From: a virus
Direction: 5' to 3' (one strand)
Length of the DNA stretch: 64,000 nucleotides
Virus record (IMG/VR): IMGVR_UViG_3300038427_000657
Span: 1 to 64,000 of that record
In this document: piece after piece, positions 7,424 through 40,344 of the stretch
How the letters are laid out: every line of letters starts with the position of its first letter
Numbering within the stretch: position 1 is the stretch's first letter
The notes under the pieces: generated by a model
Database searches by the model: none
What the model saw: the letters and a program-made list of their open reading frames with translations, nothing else
Told to the model about the DNA's origin: nothing
Position numbers and translations under genes: made by a program

Positions 7424-7452
7424 ATTATCGTAAATTAAATATAAAAGGTCAA
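7424..7452 (-). promoter_or_regulatory. Early-type promoter
   Basis: TTGACC and GATAAT hexamers upstream of the nuclease gene at 6716-7384; overlaps the methyltransferase stop. Confidence 0.65.
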
Positions 7453-8195
7453 GAAAAAAAACGGTTATATATTTCTTCGTCTAATGCTTTCTTGGCTTTC
7501 TGAAAATATGTCTTATCAATCTCAATTCCAATGAATTTTCGATTTAGATTTCGACATGCTATACCTGTTGTTCCTGCACCCATACAATTGTCCATCACAA
7601 CATCTCCTACGTTTGTATAAGTTTTTATCAAATACTCCAATAATTTTATTGGCTTTTGAGTCGGATGTCCATCTTTCATTCTTGGATTTGGAATCTTAAT
7701 CACACTTCGAGCATGCCTAAACCCGTCATTTTTTTTAGATGACGGTCTTTGAGGATTATAACTTCCCGCTTTATATTTTCCTGTACGATTAATTTCATAA
7801 GGAGTACCCTTTGTCCGTTGTTCGTTATAAGTTGGAAGTTTTTTATAGAAGACCAAAATCAATTCATGGCTTCGAAGTGGTTGATTATTTATATTCATTT
7901 GTCCCGATGAAATAGTTTTTTCCCAAACTATATCATATCTAAAAAATTTAAGATTACTCATAACAAGTCGGCTAGCAAATGGCTGAGTTGCTGTAAATAC
8001 CATGGCACCATTGGGTTTAATAATTCTATGATATTGTTCCCACAATTTATCGAATGGTATTATAATATCCCACTTATTCTGTGTAATCCCATAGGGTAAA
8101 TCAACTAAAATCATATTCACAGATTCATCAAATACTTTTTCCGGCATAATTTTAAGACAATCACCTTCATAAATTGTAATAGTTTTTTCTACCAT
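7449..8195 (-). CDS. DNA methyltransferase (DPPY-type, beta order)
   Basis: 248 aa. DLPYG (32-36) is a variant of the catalytic DPPY motif; near the C-terminus MDNCMGAGTTG is the SAM-binding FxGxG-type motif, giving the permuted (beta) order of N4-cytosine/N6-adenine methyltransferases. HPTQKP precedes it, as in that family. Pairs with the nuclease downstream. Upstream lie a near-consensus sigma70 promoter (8202-8229) and, inside it, a TATTTAT box. Confidence 0.88.
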   Translation of the reverse strand: MVEKTITIYEGDCLKIMPEKVFDESVNMILVDLPYGITQNKWDIIIPFDKLWEQYHRIIKPNGAMVFTATQPFASRLVMSNLKFFRYDIVWEKTISSGQMNINNQPLRSHELILVFYKKLPTYNEQRTKGTPYEINRTGKYKAGSYNPQRPSSKKNDGFRHARSVIKIPNPRMKDGHPTQKPIKLLEYLIKTYTNVGDVVMDNCMGAGTTGIACRNLNRKFIGIEIDKTYFQKAKKALDEEIYNRFFS

Positions 8196-8334: not shown

Positions 8335-9431
8335 ATTATCACGAAACGTTCCCCGAAGGTCTATCTCGACAATTTTGTGATTTACTTTGAGTGAGAATAC
8401 CTCATTGTGTACCGGCCTTCTAAGATTATCGCTACCTTGCGGATAGCCTTCCTTTTCATCCAAATCCACCGTTGCGGGCAACGTATGGTTTATCCGGTAA
8501 GCCTGCCTGTTTTAGTTGGTGGCGTTTCCAACCTGACGATGACGTATTCCGTATTTCATCTAACGTCTGCCTTGCGAGCAGTAAGAGGGGCTAACCTCTC
8601 CGTTATCTTCAACGCGAACAACTTTCGCCTTGCGAGCTACGGTTGCCTGAATTACCTTACGGCTCCAGAATTAAGACTTTTTCAGTTATCGCGGGCACCG
8701 GCTTTGCGTTTTCTAATAGATAACCGGGTTTGACCCCAGTAGCCTACTGTGTATAATACAGTTGCTCTACCTTGAGCTATATCAACCTAACAAACTTGTG
8801 CGGTGCCTGTGGATTCATACCTTTTGGAGATACAAAATGCCACACAAGTCCTAACTTTCCCTTGCGAGTACTTATTCATCTTTCAAGATTCCGTCCTTGG
8901 TATGAGCCGTGGCCGGTTTCTATCAGATTGTCGTGAAGCTTTTGGTTGCTGGCCTCAAACCTCACTACTTTGCTTAAATCTTAACTCTCACTGTTGCGCT
9001 TGGCAGATGGTAGTGCTCGACGGCATCGTTAGTAGATATCTTACAGTGTTACCCTCAGATACCATTTTCCATCCCAGCTTTAAGTGTAACACCATCTTTT
9101 GGATGATATTTACAGATTTCGCTCGTTGTATCGGTGTCCAACCTTGCGATTGGTGAGTGGCCGTTAGGGGCCATCCCTTTGGCCGTATTGCTACGGTTTA
9201 TCTTTATGAAGTCACCTTGCGGCAACTCCAACGGAGACGATACTCCCCGTTAAATCTACTGACAAAGAACAAATATTCATAGTGTGAACAACTATAGTGT
9301 TGTTTACTTACGCCGTCATTACATCGGCACACATGATACGGTTGACTGAACAACTACTACCTTTCGGCGTTTCGTACCGTATGAACACAAACCATTATGA
9401 TTTCATTCGAAAGCGTTCCGAATTCAATCGT
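8335..9431 (-). ncRNA. Giant structured RNA 1 (GOLLD/ROOL-like candidate)
   Basis: About 1.1 kb with no credible ORF, started by an early-type promoter (9438-9465) and followed by a terminator. Four strong hairpins crowd 9138-9251: CCAATC-GCAA-GGTTGG, CCGTA-GCAA-TACGG, AGTTGCC-GCAA-GGTGACT and an 8-bp AACGGGGA/TCTCCGTT stem. Three have GNRA loops. A tRNA-Ile-like module (8716-8786) is embedded. Large ornate phage RNAs next to or containing tRNAs are known (GOLLD, ROOL); membership needs a covariance search. The plus-strand frames here are shadows. Confidence 0.75.
8716..8786 (-). tRNA. tRNA-Ile(TAT)-like module inside giant RNA 1
   Basis: Normal D-arm (TAGCTCAAGGTAGAGCA), perfect anticodon arm ACTGT-ATTATAC-ACAGT with anticodon TAT, and a T-arm CTGGG-GTCAAAC-CCCGG-like hairpin. 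The acceptor pairs only through about 4 bp (GATA/TATC) and there is no CCA, so it is probably a structural domain rather than a charged tRNA. Confidence 0.55.
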
Positions 9432-9514: not shown

Positions 9515-9591
9515 TGGTCAGAATGGTGAGATTCGAACTCACGCTCTCAAGCTCCCGAAGCTTGCGCTTTCCCAAACTAAGCTACATTCTG
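9515..9591 (-). tRNA. tRNA-Pro(CGG)
   Basis: Acceptor CAGAATG/CATTCTG, anticodon stem CAAGC/GCTTG with loop TTCGGGA, T-loop TTCGAAT, encoded CCA. Confidence 0.92.
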
Positions 9592-9951: not shown

Positions 9952-10026
9952 TGGCGCTTCATAAGGGACTTGAACCCTTATAAGGCGGTTTAGGGGCGCC
10001 TGTTCTTGCCATTGAACTAATGAAGC
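9952..10026 (-). tRNA. Putative amber suppressor tRNA (CTA anticodon, C33)
   Basis: Acceptor GCTTCAT/ATGAAGC with discriminator G and CCA, T-arm AAGGG-TTCAAGT-CCCTT. The 17-nt anticodon arm is GGCGC-CCCTAAA-CCGCC: anticodon CTA, C at position 33 and a C-C mismatch at 31-39. By code it would read UAG. UAG still ends several genes here (for example 45721-45723), so wholesale recoding is unlikely. Confidence 0.65.
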
Positions 10027-10944: not shown

Positions 10945-11793
10945 TCAGATTATAAAATCCTTATAAGATTCATGATATTCTCCAATAGTATAATAAAATT
11001 TGTTTATTAACTCAATTATTTCAGGCGTCAACCTTTGTTTTGCTTTATCAATTGTGGATTGAGGAATAGAACGAACACCATAAAATGCTTCGGCAATGGA
11101 ACCTGCAATGGCTGCAATAGTATCAGTATCACCCTTGGTATAAACTGCATTACGAATGGCTGACTCATAATCCGTGGATTCCATAAAGCATATTAATGCT
11201 TGAGGAGCGGTTACATCACATCTGATAGTAGTTTTTGGTAACAATCGTAGTTCTTCAACAGTCATATTCAACATATGACCAAAACTCTTTTCCACATATG
11301 ATTTAATTTGTAATTTTGACTTTCCATGCAATGCCATATAAATGGCAGAAACAATTGATTGAATTCCACGAGCCGATTCTGGAGAATTATGTGTCATTCT
11401 GATACTTTCTAATGCTACAGATTTTGCTATATTAAAATCGTCATAGTATAAACCAATAGGACTACAACGCATCATACATCCATTTGCATAACTATTCTTT
11501 ACTGTAATTCCGCCTTCACTAACCCATTCATAAAATCCACTTCCATATCCTTTATTTGGATATTTTGACGCCCACTTTTTGTATAATTCTGCAAATGGAG
11601 GATAACCTATAGGCGAATCATTAATAGTAAATGTTTGTAAAATTGCATCAGCAGTAGCGCAAGTAAGAACGGTATCATCCGTAAAACGTGAATTTCTTCC
11701 ATCAAACAAAGAAAAATTTCTATCATCTACAAAATTAAGACCAGCACCTTCGTAGGGTGAACCGACTATATCTCCTATAATTGCTCCAATCAT
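10945..11793 (-). CDS. ADP-ribosylglycohydrolase (DraG/ARH family) 1
   Basis: 282 aa, full length for the family. GAIIGDIVGSPYE (3-15), FTDDTVLTCATADAIL near 37-52 and GDTDTIAAIAG near 235 supply the Asp/Thr residues that hold the two catalytic metals. Removes ADP-ribose from proteins or nucleic acids in known members. Last gene of a four-gene operon, 3 nt after a second ARH-like gene. Host or phage target is unknown. Confidence 0.9.
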   Translation of the reverse strand: MIGAIIGDIVGSPYEGAGLNFVDDRNFSLFDGRNSRFTDDTVLTCATADAILQTFTINDSPIGYPPFAELYKKWASKYPNKGYGSGFYEWVSEGGITVKNSYANGCMMRCSPIGLYYDDFNIAKSVALESIRMTHNSPESARGIQSIVSAIYMALHGKSKLQIKSYVEKSFGHMLNMTVEELRLLPKTTIRCDVTAPQALICFMESTDYESAIRNAVYTKGDTDTIAAIAGSIAEAFYGVRSIPQSTIDKAKQRLTPEIIELINKFYYTIGEYHESYKDFII

Positions 11794-11796
11794 AAA

Positions 11797-12993
11797 TTAT
11801 TTTTCTTTTATATTGTTCAGTATGTCTTTTATAGCATCTTTATTAACATTGTATTCTGTTCTTTTTCTTTGTGTTGTAATTTCAGGCAACGGGTCACCCA
11901 TTACTCCTTCCATTGGTTGACAATATCTTATCCATTTTTCAGGTGGAGAACTGATAATTCCAATCATACCACCAACAATAGCACAATTTGTATCAACATC
12001 ACCAAAACATTTACAAGTATCAATTAAAACCTTTTCATACATTTCATCTAATGGATATAAGGATAATGCCTGTATTGTTAAAAATACACATAATGGAACT
12101 GTATCTTGACAAGTAACATATGTTCCATTTCCTAAAATTTCAATCAGTTTCATCAAAGGTATGTCCAATGGAAGTTCCTTTGCTTTAAGAATACCTTTTT
12201 TTACTTGGCTATCAGGAATAAATTCCAAGATGTAATCATAGATTTTCTTGGTATCCATATCTGTGACATAATTTGTATTCAACACCTTTTCCGATTTATA
12301 TACCCATTCAGACAACGAAATACACTTTGCTAATGATGCAATAGCAATAGCACCAGCAATCCCTTCCGGATGACAATGAGTTGGTTCTGCTGATAACGTT
12401 GCTTGTTTAACAACTTCTTCAATTGGAGAAAGATAAAAATACGCACCCAATGGAGGAATTCTCATAGCAGACCCATTACCACACGAACCAACTTTTTGTG
12501 GAAGAAATTTTTGACTACCATCTTTTCTTAATTCCGATAAAGCATCTTTGACAGATTTACCATGCGCAATATCACCTATTAACACATCAATGTTTGATGG
12601 ACTTTCGCCTCTCTGAAATGTTAAATTTGCTTCTCTCCAAGGTTTACCCTCATAAATATCTTTTAACACTTTCCTAGTCATCAATCCGTAACCATAAATT
12701 TCACCATCAGGGTCACGGGTATAATATCTAGTTGCCCATTCCATCGCTAACTTATCTTGTAAAATTTTCTTGTTGTTAAACAAGTGATTTACCAAAACGA
12801 TTGCCTCTTCCGTGTCATCGGAATATTGGAATGATTTTCCCATAGGGTCTATGTTATCTATCCCAAATTTAGCAATTCCTTCATCCAACGCTTTTAATAT
12901 GTCTTGAGCGTAATAAAACTGTCCAACATTTCCAATACAATCACCAACCCACAAACCTTTGAGGGATTTTACCATTAATTCTATATTATTCAT
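11797..12993 (-). CDS. ADP-ribosylglycohydrolase-like protein 2
   Basis: 398 aa, larger than ARH 1. SLKGLWVGDCIGN (9-21), YSDDTEEA and the late GDVDTNCAIVGG metal-binding motif identify the DraG fold; SCGNGSAMRIPPLG and EPTHCHPEG match conserved family segments. The first SDDT motif follows the family pattern, so activity is plausible. Central gene of the DUF1152-ARH-ARH operon. Confidence 0.85.
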   Translation of the reverse strand: MNNIELMVKSLKGLWVGDCIGNVGQFYYAQDILKALDEGIAKFGIDNIDPMGKSFQYSDDTEEAIVLVNHLFNNKKILQDKLAMEWATRYYTRDPDGEIYGYGLMTRKVLKDIYEGKPWREANLTFQRGESPSNIDVLIGDIAHGKSVKDALSELRKDGSQKFLPQKVGSCGNGSAMRIPPLGAYFYLSPIEEVVKQATLSAEPTHCHPEGIAGAIAIASLAKCISLSEWVYKSEKVLNTNYVTDMDTKKIYDYILEFIPDSQVKKGILKAKELPLDIPLMKLIEILGNGTYVTCQDTVPLCVFLTIQALSLYPLDEMYEKVLIDTCKCFGDVDTNCAIVGGMIGIISSPPEKWIRYCQPMEGVMGDPLPEITTQRKRTEYNVNKDAIKDILNNIKEK

Positions 12994-13032
12994 AATATCA
13001 TTATATTCCAGCTACAATTTTGATTCCCATAT

Positions 13033-13923
13033 TTAATACGGTATTGATTGAGACATTCTTGTAGGAATTGACATTTCCTCAATAGTCGATATTGACTCCG
13101 CAAAAGTAAAATGATTCTCCAATAGAGGAATAATATTATTCTTTTTAATAACAACATCTCCATCAAAAAACCACATGATACCCATTAATGGGGATAAGAA
13201 TACTAAAACTTCAGGATATATAGATGACTCATTTTGATACCATTTTTCTCCAACCAATCCTTCTATGGAAGGTATTATTCTTGGATGAATATGACTTTTT
13301 CTATAATTTGGAAGATTTGCTATGTTTTCATAGGCAGATTTGTAAAATTGAAATGATGACATATTTTTAGTAAGAGAACAAGAACCAAGAAATGCATCAT
13401 CTTTTATCAATTCTGCCATATTTTCCAACGCATGATAATGAGAAATTTGTTCTTCAACTTCACAACCAAATCCAAAAACAACCAACCACTTTTTTATTGG
13501 AATGTTTTTAAAAGCTGCAAGAGCCACAAAATCTTCTCCTACAGTTCCTTTAAACTCTTCATCACCATGCATTAAAGAATCCACACCACAATCAACCATA
13601 ATAACATGGTCAATATTATGTTTTTCAATTATCTTTTCATAACTTTTTCGGAGAATAGAAGGACCAACTCTACCATCAATATAAATAGGTTTCTTTATAA
13701 ATTTGGCAAGTGGAATTTCAGGCAAAAAAGATGAACTATCATGTTCATTCTCATCAACTATTGAAGAAACTAAATGGGAAAATTGATGACTATGAAAGAA
13801 ACAATTCATGCCCATTCTTGTTAACGTGTAATAAATAGGTAATGTTCCGTAAATATCAAAACCACCACCCATACCACACAGCAGAACGTTAGCACCCTCT
13901 ACTTTACTAGGTAGATTTAACAT
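13033..13923 (-). CDS. DUF1152-like protein
   Basis: 296 aa. The N-terminal CGMGGGFDIYGTLPIY glycine-rich signature matches DUF1152, whose members are mostly of unknown function. A VDCGVDSLMHGDEE segment in the middle is also conserved-looking. Placed between a small protein and two ADP-ribosylglycohydrolases, it may act on the same metabolite or modification; that is inference. Confidence 0.8.
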   Translation of the reverse strand: MLNLPSKVEGANVLLCGMGGGFDIYGTLPIYYTLTRMGMNCFFHSHQFSHLVSSIVDENEHDSSSFLPEIPLAKFIKKPIYIDGRVGPSILRKSYEKIIEKHNIDHVIMVDCGVDSLMHGDEEFKGTVGEDFVALAAFKNIPIKKWLVVFGFGCEVEEQISHYHALENMAELIKDDAFLGSCSLTKNMSSFQFYKSAYENIANLPNYRKSHIHPRIIPSIEGLVGEKWYQNESSIYPEVLVFLSPLMGIMWFFDGDVVIKKNNIIPLLENHFTFAESISTIEEMSIPTRMSQSIPY

Positions 13924-16048: not shown

Positions 16049-16452
16049 TGGTGGACGTGACGGGAATTGAACCCGTGTTTTTACCATTACACCCATCCAG
16101 CACTACATGTTTATCAACTTTAAACTTCGGTTTAATATCAAAATTTGAGAAAATTATCAAACCTAGATTGAGAACTGCCCAATCTAACCAGTCCTGTAAT
16201 TTTAACCACAAGCAGTTTTCTCACGGTTTTACGCCATTATTGAATTAGTGAGAATCACTCAACATGACGGAGCGGAAACTAGGCCGCTACAGCGACTTCC
16301 TCAAAGGTATTAACCTCAAAAGCAAAGTCAGCATTTACCAATCGATTTAGATTAGCATTTAGTTTAGTCTTCGTTTTTTAAGAGGCCACAGATGACCAAT
16401 CCTCTACATGCTCTGTATGACTGTTATGATAAATCGATACCATTACACGCCC
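16049..16452 (-). ncRNA. ssrA: tmRNA (transfer-messenger RNA)
   Basis: 404 nt. The ends form a tRNA-like domain: acceptor GGGCGTG/CACGTCC, discriminator A, encoded CCA, T-arm ACGGG-TTCAATT-CCCGT. An internal frame (16279-16356) starts at GCT and ends EEVAVAA-stop, the hydrophobic Ala-rich tail of proteolysis tags. An early-type promoter (16469-16496) starts about 10 nt upstream. Frees stalled ribosomes and tags the products. Tag length is 25 codons from the first GCT, or 17 if the second GCT resumes; both follow TAAAT. Confidence 0.9.
16279..16356 (-). other. tmRNA tag reading frame
   Basis: Begins ANLNR and ends EEVAVAA followed by TAG. Longer than the typical 10-15 residues. An alternative resume codon within it (ADFAF) would give 17 residues. 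Confidence 0.75.
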
Positions 16453-21412: not shown

Positions 21413-21451
<39 letters not shown>

Positions 21452-21688
21452 TTATGTTGTGTTAAGTTTAAATAAGTAAAAAAACAAGTTGGCTAAAATA
21501 GCCCATATTCCTATTACCATCGAATAAGCCAAGAAAATTGACAAAATACCAAGTGGTAATAATGGAGTAAAGCAAAGAATTATTCCCAGAACACCAAAGA
21601 AGAGGAATATGCCTAATGCTAAAGGAACTAAGCAACAAGCAATTATAAGGAATATACATAATTTTAACATATAACAAAGACAGTTCAT
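21452..21688 (-). CDS. Small membrane protein
   Basis: 78 aa, nearly wholly hydrophobic with two or three TM helices (IFLIIACCLVPLALGIFLFF, GILSIFLAYSMVIGIWAIL). Early promoter (21697-21725) upstream. Function unknown. Confidence 0.75.
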   Translation of the reverse strand: MNCLCYMLKLCIFLIIACCLVPLALGIFLFFGVLGIILCFTPLLPLGILSIFLAYSMVIGIWAILANLFFYLFKLNTT

Positions 21689-39234: not shown

Positions 39235-39239
39235 ATTCA

Positions 39240-40122
39240 AATGCGTTCCGGAAGGATTCGCTTGTTACCTTCGACTATTCTTACCTTTCAGTTATTCAGT
39301 CAGTTGGAACCCGTCGATTCCTAAACCACGCCGTTATGGCTTATTAGCGTGATTACAAAGGATTTTTCAGTTGGCCTACTTAGTCATCCTTTACCTTACT
39401 TACTCCGGCTACTTTCGTATCCATAAAGATTCTTCACCTTCATGTTACTTTACTGCTAACGGTAGCAGTTACTCAGTCACGGAACACAAAATTATTCAAA
39501 GAACGTCTTTTATTGATGGAGAGTTTTAGAGGAAACAATATCGTCTTGCATTACCCTCGCAGCAGCTTACTGTTTTCACCAACAAAAAATTATCTTATCA
39601 CAACTTAATAGATTATCAAGCTTTGTTGGTGGTTCACGGTAGCAGGTAGGAATCTTTAAGGGTTTGAGCCAACCTAAATGTCCTTATTCAGGAACCTATA
39701 TGCCAACAAAAAATTCATGGGCTGGATGATTGGTTATGAAAGTTGCCGCTTTCAGCCAATCGGCAATACAGCCTCTACAATTTCATCTGGTCATCCTCAG
39801 AAACTTAGACCGGCATGGACCAAGTTTCTTACTTAGCCGACTCCAGACGGCCCCTTTCGGAGCATTCATTTCTTTCCACATTACCATCAGCATTACGCCG
39901 ATACGTTGTAGTCTCAACCTTCGGGTCGCTTAGCGGCCACGAGTAATCTTCTTACTCTCTTTTCCTAACAATTGGGTTTCAACTGTCTCCGGTGTTTCGG
40001 TATTTGTTCCCGGCGCTTTTATTTAAGCTAAGAACGCTTTACTGTCACGTTCTAGTCATCTCCCAGCTTTGGCTAATTCCAATGGGAACATCGCTCACCG
40101 GCGACTTTTACCACTGGACAAC
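39240..40122 (-). ncRNA. Giant structured RNA 2 (GOLLD/ROOL-like candidate)
   Basis: About 880 nt without a credible ORF, from an early-type promoter (40129-40156) to tRNA-fMet. Clear hairpins: GCTCC-GAAA-GGGGC (39850-39863), CGACC-CGAA-GGTTG (39915-39929), ACTGCTA-CCGT-TAGCAGT (39452-39469) and AGAACG/CGTTCT (40031-40053). Architecture (own promoter, tRNA neighbour, no ORF) parallels giant RNA 1, but the two sequences are not obviously alike. Confidence 0.75.
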
Positions 40123-40128
40123 GAATAA

Positions 40129-40156
40129 ATAGTATCAAAGAACCAAAAAATGTCAA
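40129..40156 (-). promoter_or_regulatory. Early-type promoter of giant RNA 2
   Basis: TTGACA, 16 bp, TACTAT; overlaps the 3' end of the gene at 40153. Confidence 0.75.
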
Positions 40157-40344
40157 GCCTCTGATTTTCCTAATTCCCTCAATCTCTGGTCACCAGAACC
40201 TACAATTTTACCTTCACGCGTTCTGGTTCGATTATCACCCTTATCATGTCTAGCAACAAGCTTTCCACTACCATCACGAAGCCAATTGCCATCTTGGCGA
40301 CCAATGATTTTACCTTCGCGGTTTCTTATGAAATTATCTGGCAT
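40153..40344 (-). CDS. Short-repeat protein
   Basis: 63 aa made of three imperfect about 18-residue repeats (R-x-R-E/D-G-K-I/L-I/V-G/A-R), e.g. REGKIIGRQDGNWLRDGSGK. Such repeats form beta-hairpin stacks. Ends Glu-Ala-TGA in the next promoter. Confidence 0.65.
   Translation of the reverse strand: MPDNFIRNREGKIIGRQDGNWLRDGSGKLVARHDKGDNRTRTREGKIVGSGDQRLRELGKSEA

Follow-up and report, generated by a model that had tools for sequence, protein, structure and literature searches.

Organization of the Locus

The window analyzed here is the whole 64-kb stretch taken from a large phage genome fragment (an IMG/VR record of 189 kb, which has an almost identical contig of 365 kb). Its minus strand carries, from 9431 to about 8262, a discrete, non-coding and highly structured RNA gene, in which a promoter, a boxA-like site, a structured 5′ domain, a tRNA-shaped linker insert, a conserved 3′ domain and a terminator follow one another, with about 1.1 kb between the promoter and the terminator. 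Judged from its sequence, the RNA belongs to the known GOLLD class. An initial annotation had placed a giant non-coding RNA at 8335–9431; these coordinates hold, and the strand, on which it was silent, is minus. Its statement that this kilobase lacks coding potential was also borne out: the longest overlapping ORF (117 aa) lies on the opposite strand, and none of the six overlapping ORFs has a Pfam match, so that a coding reading of 8335–9431 was dropped.

The gene has a sigma-70-like promoter of its own, as had been proposed. This promoter (TTGACA-16-TAAAAT with an upstream TG, minus strand, 9465–9438) shows 11 of 12 matches and contains GGCTTGAC, an octamer that occurs at 29 sites in the window against 0.9 expected and is apparently the early promoter signature of the phage; transcription would start near 9431. 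At the other end, the anticipated intrinsic terminator is present as the hairpin GCCUAAAUGUUUAGGC with a U-rich tail (minus strand, about 8291–8262; fold z −4.9), between the RNA and a DNA methyltransferase gene (7449–8195). A tRNA-Pro gene (9515–9591) lies directly upstream of the RNA gene, and across the whole window ARAGORN identifies a total of 16 tRNAs plus one tmRNA; a location in phages or prophages near tRNA genes is a trait of the GOLLD class, as is expression in the lytic cycle.

Several neighboring genes deserve separate mention. The tmRNA is phage-encoded (minus strand, 16049–16452) and specifies the tag ANLNRLVNADFAFEVNTFEEVAVAA. A tRNA with a CUA anticodon (minus strand, 9952–10026), which ARAGORN designates tRNA-Pyl, is a possible amber suppressor. 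Two ADP-ribosylglycohydrolase-family genes and then, upstream on the strand, a DUF1152 gene occupy 10945–13923 of the minus strand. A second candidate giant non-coding RNA is found beside a tRNA-Met at 39235–40130 (minus strand), with a promoter GGCTTGACA at 40159–40151 and a GTTCTTTGA motif at 39496–39504; this region has no substantial ORF on the minus strand and matches no Rfam family.

Conserved 3′ Domain and Divergent 5′ Domain

The initial annotation had suggested an ornate phage RNA of the GOLLD or ROOL type. By cmscan, positions 8388–8852 of the minus strand match the GOLLD model RF02032 over its full length (model positions 1–416; 155.1 bits against a curated threshold of 150, E 1.6e-41), and 80 of the 97 consensus pairs are standard. 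Since the score exceeds the threshold by just 5 bits, whereas most of the relatives that we found score above 270, the window RNA is a divergent member. The ROOL model (RF03087) gave no match in the record of the window, and a ROOL identity was dropped; neither did it match in any of 34 records or in the controls scanned with them, so that the sensitivity of that search is unproven.

RF02032 spans only the conserved 3′ half of GOLLD, and the assignment of the remainder depends on homologs. When the region was compared by blastn with 50,697 phage records, no match was returned; homologs were therefore sought with a motif pattern derived from the Rfam consensus and then verified with RF02032. 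The pattern retrieved 78 viral and eight genome contigs, and the model, applied to 85 records, gave 74 matches, 72 of them past the cut-off. A looser pattern added two true members (L275 and L276) among 21 new contigs, and L275, on a 58-kb contig, is the nearest relative found outside the window's own population. A blastn search among plasmids and phages for relatives of L246, an actinophage-like GOLLD, found none. The collection includes two previously unannotated GOLLDs situated in tRNA arrays, L277 (Acinetobacter phage AM24, 22907–28081) and L278 (vB_AciJM_313), which have neither a boxA nor a linker tRNA.

The 5′ domain extends over approximately 8853–9290 (minus strand), with a homology to L275 that becomes evident inwards of about 9205. 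When the two are aligned, the consensus fold reaches −71.1 kcal/mol against −21.9 (sd 4.3) for a column-shuffled null (z −11.4), and 27 pairs are changed on both sides, against a maximum of 13 in the null. In addition, the motif GAGGGTAACAC lies 594 nt before the 3′ anchor, which compares with 592–633 nt in other GOLLDs. Because the 5′ domain covaries with that of L275 and carries this motif at the spacing of the family, both halves of the RNA are GOLLD-like; a separate, less conserved structured 5′ domain and a total length above 800 nt are traits of the class. Covarying helices in homologs, which had been named as a test of the claim, are seen in the 3′ domain as well: against a second allele (L252), ten pairs change, of which six are kept, three are gained and none is broken, where the null breaks 3.05 on average (P 0.02).

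The three GCAA-loop hairpins reported at 9138–9251 are also present on the minus strand, with stems of 10 bp (G–U allowed; 9207–9230), 5 bp (9183–9196) and 6 bp (9138–9153). One weaker hairpin raises the number to four, where 0.35 would be expected; in 500 shuffles this count was never attained. The minimum-energy fold also paired the two ends of the RNA in a long-range helix, which was no better than chance and was dropped.

Two Alleles of the RNA

The 365-kb contig, IMGVR_UViG_3300038424_000251, can be compared with the window over its whole 64 kb. All 40 differences within GOLLD are confined to 8431–8932 (minus strand); the sole differences elsewhere are a 3-nt indel at 21450 and one substitution at 21659. 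A third contig, IMGVR_UViG_3300038429_000195, carries the allele of the window over 8431–8673, is flanked by other genes and breaks off within GOLLD.

The localized difference is either a recent exchange of a cassette or an assembly bubble, in which the GOLLD of a co-occurring phage was stitched into the contig. We consider the chance of the latter to be about even. All three contigs are metagenomic, and the third stops within the RNA gene in the manner of an assembly tangle, with the window allele set beside a different flank; on the other hand, both alleles are full-length and structure-preserving GOLLDs, and an exchange between related phages would leave the same picture. The identity of the RNA as GOLLD is unaffected by this choice.

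The tRNA-Like Module in the Linker

The embedded tRNA-Ile-like module of the initial annotation corresponds to positions 8715–8786 of the minus strand, which match the tRNA model RF00005 (46.9 bits, threshold 29; E 7e-7) and present a UAU anticodon at 8753–8755, so that the designation Ile-like was correct. The module sits within the unpaired AU-rich stretch of RF02032, namely the variable linker of GOLLD, and 21 of its 22 cloverleaf pairs are standard; the acceptor stem has one mismatch. ARAGORN calls it at a relaxed threshold only. It combines a cloverleaf above the Rfam threshold with a 6-bp T-stem closed by a loop of 6 nt rather than the 7 nt of a functional tRNA, and it encodes no CCA.

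Tests of the linkers found such modules in six GOLLDs (the window, L252, L251, L247, L249 and L275), and most others have a short AT-rich linker without a tRNA. None of the six modules encodes CCA, which is present in all nine other tRNAs of L251 and, according to ARAGORN, in all 16 others of the window. The anticodons or their equivalents comprise UAU, UCA, CUA, GCA, a UGA lacking U33 (L249) and a 6-nt anticodon loop (L275). Degradation is uneven, and the modules of L251 (58.6 bits) and L249 (60.0 bits) are near-canonical. The linkers of L239 and L246 contain AGATATGGTAATCT, an element that resembles a D-arm and is not matched by the Rfam tRNA model; it may be what is left of a tRNA. That tRNAs are sometimes present in the GOLLD linker was already known (PMC12286853); what is new is that the inserts are defective and variable.

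Between the window and L252 the module differs by ten substitutions, and the second allele has a UCA anticodon and has lost one G of the D-loop. No cloverleaf pair is broken by these substitutions and two pairs are changed on both sides (joint P 0.0014 under a whole-cloverleaf null; a null restricted to the T-stem was uninformative, P 0.40). Because the substitutions spare the cloverleaf while the anticodons vary, the fold is probably under selection and the decoding identity is not. We infer that the module is a pseudo-tRNA which descends from a tRNA and is retained for the sake of its fold, not for decoding.

Three other accounts of the module have to be weighed against the pseudo-tRNA reading. 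The simplest, that it is a genuine tRNA processed from the transcript and reading AUA like other members of the phage tRNA cluster, would fit the Rfam score of the cloverleaf, the near-canonical modules of L251 and L249 and the tRNA genes that flank GOLLD. However, the missing CCA in the midst of CCA-encoding neighbors, the short T-loop and the acceptor-stem mismatch, the altered anticodon and D-loop of the second allele and the aberrant anticodon loops of L275 and L249 are all difficult to reconcile with it; excision would also split the two GOLLD domains apart, and for the pseudo-tRNA of a mycobacterial GOLLD no product could be detected (PMC6582537). We regard this account as very unlikely, and between a functional tRNA and a structural filler, a relic or a bait, the functional tRNA is the least likely.

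An inert relic is a better, if still rather unlikely, alternative. According to it, tRNA genes entered an unconstrained linker, by insertion or by capture, and are now decaying, which agrees with the disorder of the linker in the solved cage (PMC12286853), with the differences in anticodon and degree of decay among the modules, and with the linkers of L239 and L246, which by eye resemble an even more degraded D-arm. The allele substitutions, which spare the cloverleaf and include the two double changes, point instead to selection on the fold.

It is also tempting to speculate that a caged module serves as bait for host factors that recognize tRNAs, such as the anticodon nucleases of defence systems, so that the anticodon loop varies while the fold is kept. 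The change from UAU to UCA between two otherwise near-identical phage contigs with the fold maintained, the varied anticodons of the relatives (CUA, GCA and non-canonical) and the lack of CCA in all six modules of phages that also carry many tRNA genes would accord with such a role. Yet an interaction with host factors is purely conjectural here, and the predominance of short AT-rich linkers without a tRNA indicates that bait is not the general function of GOLLD; we consider the idea unlikely.

The boxA-Like Element

A boxA-like sequence, TGTTCTTTGT, is located on the minus strand at 9271–9262, some 160 nt downstream of the presumed start of transcription, and agrees with TGYTCTTTRA at 9 of 10 positions. 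Because about 8% of shuffled stretches reach this quality, the element of the window taken alone is suggestive. Its counterpart in L275, GTTCTTTGA, occupies a comparable place (−781 from the anchor, against −809 in the window). Across the family the enrichment is clear: 41 of 51 non-redundant GOLLDs have a motif with 9 or 10 matches of 10 at their 5′ end, compared with 3/51 on the antisense strand, 1/50 inside the gene and 9/51 downstream; shuffled sequences gave 4.3 on average. It is found in 7 of 12 clusters formed at 70% identity and also in the GOLLD of a 634-kb phage record, and it is absent from the tRNA-array GOLLDs (Acinetobacter phages AM24 and vB_AciJM_313; L239/L246). Of 13 Bacteroidota genomes, 12 likewise carry the GTTCTTTGA core ahead of the 16S gene, at a distance of 105–181 nt, which is the place of the rRNA boxA.

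BoxA serves antitermination in the leaders of rRNA and of CRISPR arrays (PMC5725501, PMC7862264). Our working inference is that transcription of GOLLD may use Nus-factor antitermination, as does that of rRNA and some CRISPR arrays. That the class as a whole carries a boxA of the host rRNA type, and that a polymerase modified by Nus factors accordingly synthesizes its long untranslated transcript, we consider slightly more probable than the contrary.

A Model for the Phage GOLLD Gene

In the most likely model, the boxA (Nus-factor) element would carry the host RNA polymerase across a structured, untranslated stretch of about 1.1 kb, and the RNA would then fold into two domains and, copy by copy, assemble into a hollow RNA-only cage like that of the solved GOLLD structure. 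By analogy with GOLLD env-38, the caps would be formed by the 5′ domains and the ring by the 3′ domains, and the linker, together with the tRNA-like module, would face the inside; for the window RNA, the assembly of a cage, the position of the module and any cargo are extrapolated from that structure. Taken as a whole, a phage GOLLD gene encoding a cage-forming RNA with a pseudo-tRNA in its linker and boxA antitermination at its 5′ end is a likely explanation of the locus. A far bolder version, in which the class combines boxA with a Nus-modified polymerase and the cage of one clade encloses a fold-keeping tRNA mimic that cannot mature as encoded and whose anticodon is swapped along with cassettes of the GOLLD core, appears improbable; if true, the GOLLD cage would be a decoy against tRNA-directed host defences.

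GOLLD is among the small number of natural RNAs that build cages of RNA alone, and the window contributes to this class a divergent copy whose gene layout is complete. Two testable handles on its function emerge, namely the rRNA-type antitermination element at the 5′ end of most relatives and the tRNA-shaped inserts that lack CCA and keep their fold. Class membership aside, the points of novelty are the association of GOLLD with boxA, tRNA inserts that are both defective and variable, and an allele difference confined to one segment.

Comparison with Known Systems

Like the boxA of rRNA and CRISPR leaders (PMC5725501, PMC7862264), the GOLLD element has a GTTCTTTRA core and belongs to the 5′ end of a long RNA that is not translated; unlike these, it is a candidate by sequence. 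In the literature searched, no report linked boxA to GOLLD or ROOL, and an earlier mention may stand in the original GOLLD, mycobacterial-array or ROOL papers. ROOL (RF03087) is likewise a giant, cage-forming phage RNA encoded near tRNAs, from which the window RNA differs in having no match to the Rfam ROOL model. The GOLLD of the mycobacterial tRNA array (PMC6582537) also harbors a pseudo-tRNA within its gene and has a tRNA cluster nearby, whereas the gene in the window has its own phage promoter and terminator.

With the RF02032 family, the window RNA shares the full-length match of the 3′ domain, a variable 5′ domain, a length above 800 nt, a phage site beside tRNA genes and a linker that sometimes holds a tRNA. 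It departs from the family in its divergence (155 bits, most relatives >270) and in a linker tRNA without CCA or a canonical T-loop, and its boxA-like 5′ element lies outside the model. GOLLD env-38 forms a 14-mer cage, solved by cryo-EM and held by kissing loops and A-minor contacts (PMC12286853). The window RNA, known from sequence alone, has the same 3′ domain model and the same two-domain-plus-linker layout; by contrast, the disordered linker of env-38 comprises nucleotides 497–538 only and is too short for a tRNA.
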